Positions 4,819 through 34,933 of a stretch of DNA of 39,509 nt are shown here, one piece after another. Numbering within the stretch: the stretch's first letter is position 1; each line of letters opens with the position of its first letter. The notes under the pieces were generated by a model. It saw only the letters and a program-made list of their open reading frames with translations, was not told where the DNA came from and made no database searches. The translations under genes and the position numbers were made by a program. Source of the stretch: Fusobacterium mortiferum ATCC 9817 (lineage in GTDB: Bacteria > Fusobacteriota > Fusobacteriia > Fusobacteriales > Fusobacteriaceae); the NCBI RefSeq assembly GCF_000158195.2, contig NZ_GL987988.1:30556-70064 (forward strand), written 5' to 3'.

Positions 4819-5616
4819 ATGAAAAAAGTTTTTATAATATATAACCAAGATAAACCATTGGCTCAAGAGCTATATCAAAAGAGTGTGGAATATTTTGCAA
4901 GTAAGAAAATAGAGATAGTAGATAAGGCAGGAAAAGCAGATTTTGGAGTGGTAATAGGTGGAGATGGGACTCTACTTCGTTCTTTTAGAAACTTTATCTT
5001 CAAAAAAAATCTCTATGTAATAGCTATTAATGCTGGAAGTCTTGGTTTTGTAACAGAGATAAAAAAAGAGAATATGATAGATGAGTATGAAAATTTTCTA
5101 AATGGAAAGTTTAAATATGAAAAAAGACATATATTGGAAGTGGAGATAGATGAGCAGATATACTATGCTCTCAATGAGGTGGTACTCTCTAAAGCAGGTA
5201 TTACTTCAAGAGTTTTAAGAGTGGATTTTAAAACTAATGGAGAGTATATGTGTACATATAAGGGAGATGGAGTCATAGTAGCTACACCTACTGGCTCTAC
5301 TGCTTACTCTATGTCTGCTGGTGGTCCGATTCTCAAATCTGATATGAAAGCTGTGGTAATTACTCCAATAGCACCTCATAATCTCAGCACTCGTCCTATA
5401 GTAATAGGTGGAGATGAGAGAATAGAGATGAAAATAGGAGATGAGAAAAGAGTAGGGCAGATAATCATAGATGGACAGACTAATAAGAGAATTACAAGTG
5501 CTGAGGATATAAGAATTGAGTATTCAAAATTCACATTAAATCTCGTGATACCAAGAGATAGAAATTATTACAGTGTGCTGAGAGAAAAATTAAAGTGGGG
5601 AGACAATCTATGTTAA
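4819..5616 (+). CDS. nadK: NAD kinase
   Basis: A 265-residue protein that makes NADP+ from NAD+ and ATP. It has the family motif GGDGTLLRS (about residues 47-55), NAGSLGFVTEI, and the NAD-binding stretch GVIVATPTGSTAYSMSAGGP (about 151-170). The C-terminal beta-sandwich has the typical RPIVI. Length is normal. GGAGGAG lies directly before the ATG. The 3' end overlaps recN by seven bases. The nadK-recN pairing is a common bacterial gene order, and here it continues the ftsX operon. Confidence 0.96.
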   Translation: MKKVFIIYNQDKPLAQELYQKSVEYFASKKIEIVDKAGKADFGVVIGGDGTLLRSFRNFIFKKNLYVIAINAGSLGFVTEIKKENMIDEYENFLNGKFKYEKRHILEVEIDEQIYYALNEVVLSKAGITSRVLRVDFKTNGEYMCTYKGDGVIVATPTGSTAYSMSAGGPILKSDMKAVVITPIAPHNLSTRPIVIGGDERIEMKIGDEKRVGQIIIDGQTNKRITSAEDIRIEYSKFTLNLVIPRDRNYYSVLREKLKWGDNLC

Positions 5617-23307: not shown

Positions 23308-24437
23308 TTAATCGCTATTAACCAAATTAAAAAAATCAGAAATAGGAATTAATGCTGCTCCAAGTATACTTGAACGCTCATTTAAATTAGAACATAAAAT
23401 ATTAAGAGGATAATTTTTAAAGAAAATATTTTTTTGAATATTTTTTAAAATATCTTGTTGATATTTTTCAATATATTTTGCTAAATTTCCACTAATTATA
23501 ATATTATTGATATCAAAAGTTAAAAGTATATTACTTAAACCAATACTAAAAAAATTAATATATTTTTCTACGAACTCTTTATTTTGTTCTTTATCAAAAA
23601 TAAAAGAAAGTTCTTTAGTACTAACCCTATTAAGCTCCTCTTCTGTTGCAATTTCAGAAACATATAATTCCCAACATCCTCTATTTCCACAATTACATTT
23701 TTTTCCAGAATAATCAATGGAGATATGTCCAAACTCTCCGCATAAATTATTATTTCCATGATGTAAGTGAGAATTAATATATACTCCAGCTCCTATTCCA
23801 CTTCCAATAGAAATAACAACAAAATTTTCATCCTTTTGAGCTTTTCCAAGAATTTTTTCGCTATAAATACAAGCATTAGCATCATTTTCTAAATAAACAT
23901 TTAAATCATATTTTTTAAATATATCATTTAAATCTATATTTTTTAAATTTAAGTTTATTCCATCTAAAATTTTTAATTTTTTTCTATCTACAATTCCTGG
24001 AAAAGAGATTCTAATTCCCAAAATTTTATCTTTAATCTCTTTATCAATTTCATTAAAAAATTCATTGAAAAGAGAGGATAAGATTTGAGAAAAAGTATTA
24101 TTATTATATTCTAAATTAAGAATTGTCCTTTCTTTTTTTATTCTTCCAAGAAGATCAATTAGAATAAAGCTAATTTTTTTTAACTCGATCTGGATTCCGA
24201 TTGAGTAGAACTTATCAGTATTTACAAGAAATGATACTGAAGAGCGTCCAGGTGTATGCATAATTTCATCAGATTGTAAAATTATTCCCTCTTTTAAAAA
24301 ATCTTCTACTAATCTTTTAGAGGTTGGATAAGTTAAATTTAATCCTTTACTTGCTTGAGAAATTGTAAAATTTTTATTTTTATATATAAAATTTAAAAAA
24401 TCTAAATCATTCCTTTTTTTTGTTCTAATTGGTACAT
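23308..24437 (-). CDS. xylR: ROK-family transcriptional repressor (XylR-like), frame interrupted at an A8 run near the start
   Basis: The long frame encodes an N-terminal winged helix ([16 protein letters not shown], then [20 protein letters not shown]) and a ROK sugar-binding domain with the zinc motif [10 protein letters not shown] and [11 protein letters not shown]. This is the layout of XylR/NagC repressors. An ATG at 24261 would leave out the DNA-binding domain, so the true start lies upstream. The only well-placed ATG is 24437-24435, seven bases after GAGG. That frame gives a short peptide and stops 11 codons on. It enters the main frame only if one A is added at, or the ribosome or polymerase slips back one base on, the run of eight A (24421-24414). 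The alternative is a rare ATT start at 24441. It diverges from xylA and should control the xylose genes. Confidence 0.75.
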
Positions 24438-24454
24438 TAATTCACCTCAATTAT

Positions 24455-24478
24455 TTATATCATTTTTTAATGATATAA
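24455..24478. promoter_or_regulatory. Palindrome between repressor and xylA, candidate XylR operator
   Basis: TTATATCATT (24455-24464) and AATGATATAA (24469-24478) are perfect 10-base inverted repeats with a 4-base spacer. They lie in the 80-base divergent region between the ROK repressor and xylA. The symmetry and location fit a repressor dimer site that could control both directions. No clear -35/-10 pair is visible for xylA. Confidence 0.65.
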
Positions 24479-24519
24479 CTTTTTTATATAAAAGTCAAAT
24501 TTTTAAAAGGAGGGTTTAT

Positions 24520-25830
24520 ATGGAATTTTTTAAAGGAATTGATAAAGTAAAATATGAAGGTGTAAAAACAAATAATTTATTAGCATTTGCTCATTATAAT
24601 CCTGAAGAAGTAATATTAGGAAAAAAGATGAAAGATCACCTTAAATTTGCAATGTCATATTGGCATACATTAACAGGAGAGGGAACAGATCCATTTGGAA
24701 ATGCAACTATGGATAGAGAGTGGAATGAGTATACTCCAATGGAAAAAGCAAAAGCTAGAGTAAAAGCTGGTTTTGAATTTATGGAAAAATTAGGACTTGA
24801 ATATTTCTGTTTTCATGATAAAGATATAGCTCCAGAGGCTGAAACATTAGAAGAGTACCATAGAAACTTAGATGAGATCGTTGATTTAATAGAAGAAGAG
24901 ATGAAAAGAACAGGAATAAAATTACTTTGGGGAACATCAAATATGTTTAGTCATCCAAGATTCATGCATGGAGCTGCAACAAGTTGTAATGCAGATGTAT
25001 TTGCTTATGCAGCAGCTCAAACTAAAAAAGCTTTAGAAATTACTAAAAGATTAAATGGAACAGGTTATGTATTTTGGGGTGGAAGAGAAGGATATGAAAC
25101 ACTATTAAATACAGACATAGGATTAGAGTTAGATAATCTTGCAAGATTTTTACAAATGGCAGTAGATTATGCTAAAAAAATAGGATTTGAAGGGCAGTTC
25201 TTTATAGAACCAAAACCAAAAGAACCAACAAAACATCAATATGATTTTGATACTACAACAGTACTTGAATTCTTAAGAAAATATAATTTAGATAAGTATT
25301 TTAAAATGAATATAGAAGCAAATCATGCTACATTAGCTGGACATACTTTCCAACATGAATTGTGTACAGCAAGAATTAATGGTGTATTTGGAAGTATAGA
25401 TGCTAACCAAGGAGATATGTTATTAGGATGGGATACAGACCAATTTCCAACAAATGTATATGATGCAGTTTTAGCTATGTATGAAACACTTTTAGCTGGT
25501 GGATTTAAAGAAGGAGGATTAAATTTTGATGCTAAAGTAAGAAGAGGTTCTTTCGAACCAAAAGATCTATTCTATGCGTATATTTCAGGAATGGATACTT
25601 TTGCTAAAGGATTAAAAGTTGCAGCGAAATTAATTGAAGATGGAACTTTTGAGAAAATTAAAGTTGAAAGATATAGTTCATATACAACTGGTATAGGAAA
25701 ACAAATTGTTAATGGAGAAGTGGGATTTGAAGAACTTTCAAAATATGCTTTAACAAATGGAGTTAAGAAAAATTCTTCTGGAAGACAAGAGATGTTAGAA
25801 AATATTTTAAATAGATATATTTATGAATAA
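24520..25830 (+). CDS. xylA: Xylose isomerase
   Basis: A 436-residue xylose isomerase of the longer class, converting D-xylose to D-xylulose in the cytosol with two divalent metals. Seen are the N-terminal [30 protein letters not shown] region, the catalytic-His stretch [12 protein letters not shown], and [18 protein letters not shown]. Metal ligands lie in [18 protein letters not shown] and [17 protein letters not shown], and in the later [19 protein letters not shown]. Length is normal and the frame intact. AGGAGG lies just before the ATG. It leads a xylA-xylB operon facing the repressor gene. Confidence 0.97.
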
Positions 25831-25846: not shown

Positions 25847-27258
25847 ATGTATATAGGAATTGATTTAGGAACATCAGCAGTAAAGTTATTATTGATGAAC
25901 CCAGAAGGGAAAGTTTTAAAAACTGTTTCTAAAGAATATCCACTTTTATTTCCTAAAGAAAATTGGATAGAACAAAATCCAGATGATTGGGTAGAAAAAA
26001 CTTTTGAAGCTTTTTTAGAATTTACTTCAGAAGAATTATCACTAGTGAGAGCAATTAGTTTTAGTGGACAAATGCATGGATCAGTTTTTTTAGATGATGA
26101 AGATAAAGTTATTAGACCAGCTTTATTATGGTGTGATCAAAGAACAGTAGAAGAGTGTAAGTTTTTAAATAGAAAATTTGGGTCAAAATTAATAGATTTA
26201 ACAGGAAATATAGCTATAACAGGATTTACTGCTCCTAAAATTTTATGGTTAAAAAATAATGAATCAGAAAATTTTAAAAAGATTAATAAAATTATGTTAC
26301 CGAAAGATTATTTAGCTTTTAAACTTAGTGGTGTTTACTCTACTGATGTTTCAGATGCTTCAGGAACACTTCTTTTAGATGTAAAAAATAGAAAATGGTG
26401 TCAAGAGATATTAGAAGAGTTGGGGATTACTGAGAAGCAACTTCCTAAATTGTTTGAATCTTATGAATGTATAGGAAAGATAAAAAAAATATAGCACAAA
26501 AATATGGATTTAATGAAGAGGTTAAAATAATAGCAGGTGGAGGAGACCAAGCTACAGGTGCTGTAGGAGTTGTAAAAGACGGAGTTTTATCAGTGGCTTT
26601 GGGAACATCTGGAGTTGTTTTTGCAAATAGCTCTTCTTACAGAGCAGAAAGTGAGGCTAGATTACATTCGTTTTGTCATGCTAATGGTGGATATCATCAA
26701 ATGGGGGTTATGCTCTCTGCAGCTGGAGCATTAAAATGGTGGATAGAAGGAGTAAATAAGAGCAAAGATTATACATACTTTGTAGAGGAAGAAGCTAAGA
26801 ATAGTAAATTTGATGAAAAATTACTATTTTTATCATATCTAACTGGTGAAAGAACACCTCATAATGATCCTGATGCAAGAGGAGCTTTTATTGGATTAAA
26901 TATTCAACATGAAAGATCAGATATGACAAGAAGTGTTTTAGAAGGAATAACTTTTGGACTAAGAGATTCTTTAGAATTAATTAAAGGTACAGGAGTTTGT
27001 ACGGATACTATAAGAGTTAGTGGTGGTGGAGCCAAAAGTAATCTTTGGAAACAAATGATAGCTGATATATTTAATTTGAAAGTAGAGACTATTAATTCTA
27101 CCGAGGGACCTGCTTTTGGAGCTGCAATTTTAGCAGCTGTAGGAGATAGGTGTTTTCATTCTGTAAATGAAGCTTGTGAGAAGTTAATCCAAGTTATTGA
27201 TACGAAATATCCAAATTCCGAAAATAAACATTTTTATGAAAAAATATCAAAAATTTAA
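25847..27258 (+). pseudogene. xylB: Xylulokinase, frame broken at an A8 run (possible slippage)
   Basis: Two frames together encode one xylulokinase, which phosphorylates D-xylulose for the pentose phosphate pathway. The first part (25847-26494) has GIDLGTSAVKLLLMNPEG, FSGQMHGSVFLD and ALLWCDQRT. The second (from about 26490) continues with IAQKYGFNEEVKIIAGGGDQATGAVG and ends with the ATP-site stretch VSGGGAKSNLWKQMIADI. The break is at eight A residues (26482-26489). As written the frame stops two codons later (ATA, TAG). One additional A gives uninterrupted IKKNIAQ and a protein of about 470 residues, near the family length. It could be a true frameshift mutation, a sequencing error, or slippage restoring some full-length enzyme. 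The rest of the gene shows no decay. Confidence 0.85.
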
Positions 27259-33626: not shown

Positions 33627-33645
33627 AAGGCGTAAATTAAATAAT

Positions 33646-33718
33646 AGGCGATGGAGTTCGCCTTTAAGTGCGAAAGCTAATGACTCCTACTCTTTAAGGG
33701 TAGGAGTCTTTTTATTTT
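33646..33718 (+). promoter_or_regulatory. Fluoride (crcB-motif) riboswitch with transcription terminator
   Basis: The aptamer (33646-33690) contains the conserved core AGGCGATGGAGTTCGCC, a short AAGTGCGAAAGC region, and the conserved end TAATGACTCCTAC. This is the arrangement of crcB-motif fluoride riboswitches. The end of the aptamer, GACTCCTAC (33682-33690), also pairs perfectly with GTAGGAGTC (33700-33708), making a terminator stem followed by a T-tract. Fluoride binding should therefore prevent termination and switch on the antiporter gene that starts 12 bases later. The two exclusive pairings are directly visible. The ligand is inferred from the known family. Confidence 0.92.
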
Positions 33719-33730
33719 CAGGAGGTAATT

Positions 33731-34933
33731 ATGCAGTATATTTTAACACTACTATTTTTAATTTTTTTAGCTTTTTATTCAAACTTTGTAGGAAAGATAT
33801 TTGAGAAGATAAAACTTCCATCTCTTATAGGAATGATGGTAGCTGGGTTATTAATAGGACCATATGGAGTTAACAAGGTTCCTAGTTTAGCTTTAAATAT
33901 AGCTCCAACTTTAAAAGATATTGCTCTAGTAACAGTTCTTTTTATAGGAGGATTAGGAATAGGAGCTGACCAGATGAAAAAAATAGGTAGACCAGCAATA
34001 TGTTTAAGTATTATTCCAGCATCTTTAGAGGGATTTGCTATAGCCTATCTATCTACAATATTTTTAGATTTTACCTTTGTACAAGGAGCTATCTTAGGAT
34101 TTATAATAGCAGCAGTTAGTCCAGCAGTATTAGTTCCTGCAATGGTAAATTTAATAGAAAATAGAGTGGGACAAAAAAAATCAATTCCACAACTTTTGTT
34201 AGTAGGTGCATCAGCAGATGACTCAATAGCAATTACTCTATTTACCTCTTTTTTAGCAATATATTTTCAAAGAATAGATGGAGGAAATTCTGATATAAAG
34301 ACGCAGTTAATAATGGTTCCTATCTCTATTATAGCTAGTGTATTTATAGGTTGGGGAATGGGATATATAGGAAATAGAAGTTTCCTAAAAATAAAGAATA
34401 TCAACTATAGATTGATAACTACCTTTGCTATATGTTTGGTATTGAGATTTATAGAAAATAGATTCCATTTTGCTCTATACAATTCACTTTTAACTATAAT
34501 GTCTTTTGGTTTCTTTATTCGTTACTATCAAGGAGAGAGATATAGAGAGATACATCAAGGAATGAACAGTATCTGGAAGTATGGAAAAATTTATCTTTTT
34601 ACTTTTGTAGGAATGGCAATAAATCCAAGATTAGTAGGGGGATATTTCTTTATAGGAGTAACAATTTTAGCTTACTCACTTTCTATTAGGTCAATTGGAG
34701 TATTAATATCTCTAGTAGGAACAAATTTAAATTATAGGGAAAGATTATTTTGTGTGGTAGCTTATCTGCCAAAGGCAACAGTTCAATCTGCTAAAGCTGG
34801 AATACCATTGCAAATGGGAGTTGTAGGTGGAGAGATAATGCAGGCAATAGCTATATTAAGTGTATTAGTAACTGCACCATTGGGAGCTATTGGAATAGAA
34901 TCAACTTATAGAAAATTATTAAAAGAGGAGTAA
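33731..34933 (+). CDS. CPA-family cation/proton antiporter under fluoride riboswitch control
   Basis: A 400-residue membrane protein with about twelve membrane segments and the sodium/hydrogen exchanger fold. KLPSLIGMMVAGLLIGPYG lies near the N-terminus, FIGGLGIGADQMKK follows, and VGASADDSIAITLF (about residues 157-170) carries the acidic pair of ion-translocating antiporters. A late PKATVQSAKAGIPLQMG is typical of this group. Fluoride riboswitches often control the exporters CrcB or CLC-F and also antiporters of this kind. It may export fluoride itself or restore pH and ion balance when HF enters. AGGAGG precedes the ATG. It is a single-gene unit with riboswitch and terminator on either side, apparently unrelated to the neighbouring sulfur genes. 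Confidence 0.88.
   Translation: MQYILTLLFLIFLAFYSNFVGKIFEKIKLPSLIGMMVAGLLIGPYGVNKVPSLALNIAPTLKDIALVTVLFIGGLGIGADQMKKIGRPAICLSIIPASLEGFAIAYLSTIFLDFTFVQGAILGFIIAAVSPAVLVPAMVNLIENRVGQKKSIPQLLLVGASADDSIAITLFTSFLAIYFQRIDGGNSDIKTQLIMVPISIIASVFIGWGMGYIGNRSFLKIKNINYRLITTFAICLVLRFIENRFHFALYNSLLTIMSFGFFIRYYQGERYREIHQGMNSIWKYGKIYLFTFVGMAINPRLVGGYFFIGVTILAYSLSIRSIGVLISLVGTNLNYRERLFCVVAYLPKATVQSAKAGIPLQMGVVGGEIMQAIAILSVLVTAPLGAIGIESTYRKLLKEE

Follow-up and report, generated by a model that had tools for sequence, protein, structure and literature searches.

In the 39,509-nt stretch of Fusobacterium mortiferum ATCC 9817 DNA analysed here (the window), the frame of xylR, a putative ROK-family xylose repressor gene, is broken at a run of eight A's that is one base shorter than the frame shared by its orthologs needs. 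The frame break is real; the presence of an A8 run is in itself no more than expected by chance, and frame shifts of this kind also occur outside the xylose genes. With moderate confidence, we favour the explanation that this and similar breaks are real one-base contractions in a mismatch-repair-deficient lineage over the explanation that they are sequencing errors. This reading implies that the run lengths in the assembly are real, that loss of mutS came first, and that XylR and XylB would both be inactive.

On the minus strand, the start region of xylR reads TTGAGGTGAATTA-ATG-TACCAATTAGAAC-AAAAAAAA-GGAATGATTTAG. The frame of ATG 24437 enters the A8 run and meets a stop after 11 codons. The frame that encodes the ROK domain is open from ATT 24441, immediately after TGA 24444, down to 23308, and its first ATG, GTG or TTG codon is the ATG at 24261. 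The N-terminal DNA-binding part is not in one frame with the ROK domain, which has no usable start before 24261. One extra A fuses the frame of ATG 24437 with the ROK frame, and the joined XylR matches PF00480 with 174 bits. The initial annotation had placed the ATG with a well-spaced Shine-Dalgarno out of frame with the main xylR frame, and both the coordinates and the description were right. Its proposal that the two frames join at the A8 run and that one A restores the frame is true by the open reading frames, and the orthologs agree. The A8 runs that it listed within intact frames, at 5002 (nadK) and 22554 (GH9), are real as well. In a genome sample, A/T 8-mers occur at about 350 per Mb, and more than 100 of them lie harmlessly within coding frames.

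The initial annotation had proposed comparing the run and the start codon among orthologous repressors. Orthologs were located by their position beside xylA (TIGR02630), a gene found in 11 of the 61 genomes of the family. In all seven genomes whose surroundings were fetched, a ROK gene directly adjoins xylA, in divergent orientation in five and in tandem in two. All seven repressors are read in a single frame from M, followed by a few residues at most, Y-Q, six residues and N. In the window gene, the codons for Y-Q precede the run and belong to the frame of the ATG; the codon for N follows the run and belongs to the main frame. Nine A's would place exactly six residues between them, and only A9 fits the spacing of the orthologs. 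This common spacing indicates that ATG 24437 is the ancestral start and that A8 is one base short. Runs of 6 to 8 are present near the start of the ortholog xylR genes, none of them frame-breaking (n = 7). The window XylR is the most divergent protein of the set, with 34-38% identity to the others as against 40-68% among most of these.

XylA, encoded by the neighbouring gene, is normally conserved (75-81% identity with relatives). In the short gap between the two genes, a promoter-like sequence (24498-24470) would drive xylR, judging from its match to the consensus, and a perfect palindrome that overlaps its putative -10 element may serve as a xylR operator. A different partial palindrome of the TTAAAGTCAATTTAA type, often present twice, was seen in most of the relatives, between xylR and xylA in L050-L055, and also upstream of xylA in L051; to judge from these sequences, it is the probable XylR operator of this group. 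No recognisable copy of this site was found in the xylR-xylA gap of the window. Elsewhere in the window, a fluoride riboswitch (RF01734, 53.5 bits) lies at 33638-33696, directly upstream of a gene (33731-34933) for a putative cation/proton antiporter-like protein.

Table 1. Features of the xylose region and frame breaks in the assembly. Positions are those of the window unless a contig is named; the xylR and xylB breaks also lie on C2.
Feature	Position	Strand	Basis or remark
xylR, putative ROK-family xylose repressor gene, frame broken	23308..24437	-	ORF, Pfam PF00480, xylA synteny, ortholog N-termini (7)
A8 run at the xylR frame break (T8 on the plus strand)	24414..24421	-	one base below the need of the ortholog-shared frame
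Shine-Dalgarno GAGGTG	24443..24448 (24448-24443)	-	5 nt from ATG 24437, 1 nt from ATT 24441; sequence
Perfect palindrome TTATATCATT-TTTT-AATGATATAA, possible operator	24455..24478	.	overlaps the putative -10; without conservation in relatives
Putative xylR promoter TTGACT-17-TATCAT	24470..24498	-	consensus match only
xylA, xylose isomerase, intact	24520..25830	+	TIGR02630
xylB, xylulokinase, frame broken	25847..27258	+	TIGR01312
A8 run at the xylB frame break	26482..26489	+	one A short
Single GGAGTT unit (two in L053)	26566..26571	+	6-nt tandem contraction in xylB
mutS1, split by a 13-nt deletion	C8 ~302521-305132 (L177), deletion junction at about 303,860, outside the window		
AraC-type regulator, break	C2 240788		T7
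MORN-repeat protein, break	C2 358677		A7
citG, break	C2 418254		T8, one too many; Pfam domain spans the junction
deoC, break	C2 470408		A8, one too many; Pfam domain spans the junction
Second ROK gene, breaks	C2 566401, 566656		two A9 runs
htpG, break	C2 726551		A7
corA, break	C2 908480		A7; Pfam domain spans the junction
Membrane protein, break	C2 964109		A7
Lysine/ornithine monooxygenase, break	C2 1035990		T7; Pfam domain spans the junction

The initial annotation had described the same pattern, an A8 run one A short, in xylB, and it is seen there both in the open reading frames, 25847-26494 and 26467-27258, which join at the run, and in the ortholog alignment. The joined xylB aligns over its length, through the break, with seven orthologs (57-67% identity). 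It also carries a second lesion: after the GGGDQA motif, where relatives read GAVGxGxV or GAIGxGxV, the window reads GAVGVV, two residues shorter than all seven orthologs at the GGAGTT site. Solved xylulokinases and glycerol kinase, in the alignments shown, are two residues longer there as well. This 6-nt contraction suggests a loss of constraint or of function in xylB.

The assembly is a 2.67-Mb draft of eight scaffolds with uniform 100-N gaps, and the window is a single contig between two such gaps. About 1.48 of the 2.67 Mb was surveyed, made up of the 1.08 Mb of C2 and the initial 400 kb of C8. One scan searched for A/T runs where the coding signal passes from one frame to another; the other, independent of runs, searched for coding frames without a start codon and was the source of the xylR detection. 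Because breaks close to the ends of genes escape the ab initio scan, the break rates are lower bounds. In this sample, at least 11 genes are broken, at about 12 A/T runs. Hits at C2 161010, 299645, 495185, 810302 and 876569 and at C8 33593 were left out of this count, and those at C2 71893, 278397 and 690115 and at C8 357828 and 80773 turned out to be ordinary neighbouring genes. On C2, the proportion of broken runs was about 2/1770 for 6-mers (about 0.1%), 6/664 for 7-mers (0.9%), 4/116 for 8-mers (3.4%) and 2/4 for 9-mers; one-base indel breaks in runs thus rise with length, a pattern that draft miscalls could equally give. In 0.8 Mb of the relatives G007, G008 and G010, no break was confirmed among about 412 coding runs of at least 7, an IS3-type transposase aside (Fisher P 0.025 for the difference from the present genome). 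A possible break in a gene for a TPR-like protein, near an A8 in G007 (L162, around 19600), appeared only in the run-independent scan. A plasmid search returned weak and unrelated matches only, and a search for a macrodomain, of which a TARG1 member has been published from F. mortiferum ATCC 9817 (PMC6397177), gave no match.

The adjacent breaks in xylR and xylB had been called a striking coincidence. When 12 breaks were distributed by simulation over the coding runs of the contig, some pair fell within 2.1 kb of each other in about 25% of cases (P about 0.25). We therefore rejected this claim, as a pairing seen in about one random draw out of four needs no special cause.

The run-independent scan also exposed a split mutS1 gene. 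The deletion, of 13 nt, lies within GAGATAGAG-AATAGAGAGAGAG-AAAGAACAGG, at a place where nine relatives from the genus retain the reading LEIENRERERTGIKG. It has no homopolymer character and resembles a deletion between short direct repeats. The N-terminal portion comprises no MutS domains beyond I-III. The ATPase domain V is encoded in a different frame, in which the first start codon, a TTG, follows only after about 210 nt. No second mutS1 was found in the genome. Another MutS-domain protein is encoded on C7 by a separate open frame of 786 residues and is presumably MutS2. A mutator is expected to carry an inactivating lesion in mutS or mutL; MutL is open, and the 13-nt deletion affects the only mutS1. 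In this respect, the assembly resembles one from a mismatch-repair-deficient lineage. In the relative G009, mutS is also frame-broken (L187), by a one-base difference in a T6 homopolymer that may be a sequencing error; this is a different lesion from the 13-nt deletion, and we did not retain G009 as a second mutator.

An A8 run in E. coli loses one A at a rate of 5.4e-8 in the wild type and 8.1e-6 in a mutS strain (PMC3306285). At these rates, which may not transfer to the present organism, the observed breakage of 8-mers would correspond to about 4,300 generations if MutS is absent and about 650,000 if it is present. Homopolymers held 86% of the microindels in mutS/mutL lineages of P. aeruginosa (PMC3764201).

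We propose the following course of events. The 13-nt deletion would cut MutS after domain III and put its ATPase domain in the wrong frame. Loops of one base in A/T runs would then escape correction, and runs of 7 to 9 in dispensable genes would shift frame throughout the genome, xylR and xylB being two of about a dozen such cases. The xylR run would have been A9 in the intact gene, one A having been lost by replication slippage. As now written, the gene would yield an 11-residue peptide, and re-initiation at 24261 would give at most a 317-residue protein lacking the N-terminal DNA-binding part. Repression by XylR should be lost with this part, except perhaps for rare rescue by slippage during transcription, and the use of xylose would be blocked at XylB. 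A counterpoint is that the mutS deletion itself could be young, or an assembly fault.

The most serious alternative, which we consider possible but rather unlikely, is that the true runs are A9 and were undercalled as A8 in the draft, xylR and xylB being intact in the cell and the other breaks being likewise miscalls. Older pyrosequencing drafts make one-base homopolymer errors of exactly this kind. The fixed gaps in the scaffolds, with one on either side of the window, the steep climb of breaks with run length, and the fact that the affected genes are otherwise open and include the conserved htpG and corA all fit with such errors. Moreover, the ratio of runs of at least 9 to 8-mers is somewhat lower here than in relatives (P 0.08). 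However, miscalls leave both the 13-nt mutS deletion and the 6-nt xylB contraction unexplained. Neither lesion can be a homopolymer miscall, and for this reason real mutation is favoured over error. Errors should also spread evenly, whereas in the surveyed 400 kb of C8 none of 254 runs is broken, as compared with 12/790 in C2 (P 0.046); this unevenness agrees a little better with selection acting on real mutations than with random error, although it is weak evidence. Among the explanations offered by the initial annotation, two sequencing errors is thus viable, and neither coordinated slippage or phase variation nor an ATT start found support.

The A8 runs could in principle form a functional switch, by which phase variation or programmed slippage, transcriptional or ribosomal, sets the levels of XylR and XylB together. 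We regard this as improbable. In its favour, broken genes of AT-rich bacteria can be rescued when slippage occurs at A/T runs (PMC3017870), and xylR and xylB are otherwise open. Nevertheless, a frame-breaking run is present in none of the orthologs, A/T 8-mers are common in this genome, chance alone should yield a linked pair in about a quarter of cases, and the 6 nt missing from xylB indicate decay rather than regulation. The same type of break is found in unrelated genes (htpG, corA, deoC, citG and others), which speaks against coordinated control. An unstable tract at a phase-variable locus is expected to exceed background and to be kept in relatives, and the xylR A8 is not such a tract. 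A related idea is that in a lineage without MutS, the A8/A9 runs of sugar regulators and kinases would flip often, giving an accidental phase variation and a clonal mixture of xylR and xylB in on and off states; we give it only a small chance.

Slimmer still is the chance that an unused xylose pathway was lost by ordinary mutations and that the mutS lesion is unrelated, as a later break or a misassembly. The divergence of xylR, the two lesions in xylB and the short xylR-xylA gap, where no clear counterpart of the relatives' operator-like motif is seen, would agree with this, but xylA is intact and conserved to a normal degree, and the breaks reach far beyond the xylose genes. Finally, ATT starts are very rare, and initiation at ATT 24441, from which the main frame is indeed open and which would yield a repressor without any frameshift, has a negligible probability, being contradicted by a Shine-Dalgarno that ends only 1 nt upstream and by the loss of the Y-Q conserved in all orthologs, which the window encodes in the ATG frame upstream of the run.

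If the run lengths are real, the genome comes from a mismatch-repair-deficient lineage, and gene absences and phenotypes concerning xylose use, deoC, citG, htpG and others would be properties of the mutator and not of the species. A limited literature search brought up no natural mutS mutator described from Fusobacterium. Should the runs instead be errors, some two dozen of the deposited gene models are probably wrong, by extrapolation from the 1.48 Mb.

Real contraction in a mutator lineage, the reading that we prefer, has its closest parallel in the mutS/mutL hypermutators of the P. aeruginosa DK2 type (PMC3764201), which share a disrupted mutS1 and one-base indels in homopolymers at rates that rise with length. 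The present case differs in that one assembly is compared with distant relatives rather than with a strain series, and in that the runs are of A/T. Poly(A) frameshifts in Blochmannia and Buchnera, AT-rich endosymbionts of insects (PMC3017870), are similar in that single indels in A/T runs interrupt otherwise open genes, with a possible rescue by transcriptional slippage. Unlike these reduced symbionts, F. mortiferum has a 2.67-Mb genome, its breaks fall in dispensable kinds of gene, and its relatives showed no conserved frameshift. With respect to ROK-family XylR repressors encoded beside xylA and xylB, the window gene shares the ROK domain with its CxCGxxGC motif and the position adjoining xylA that is found in seven relatives. 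It departs from them in being broken at the A8 run, in being the most divergent of the local set, and in that the operator-like motif of the relatives is unrecognisable beside it.
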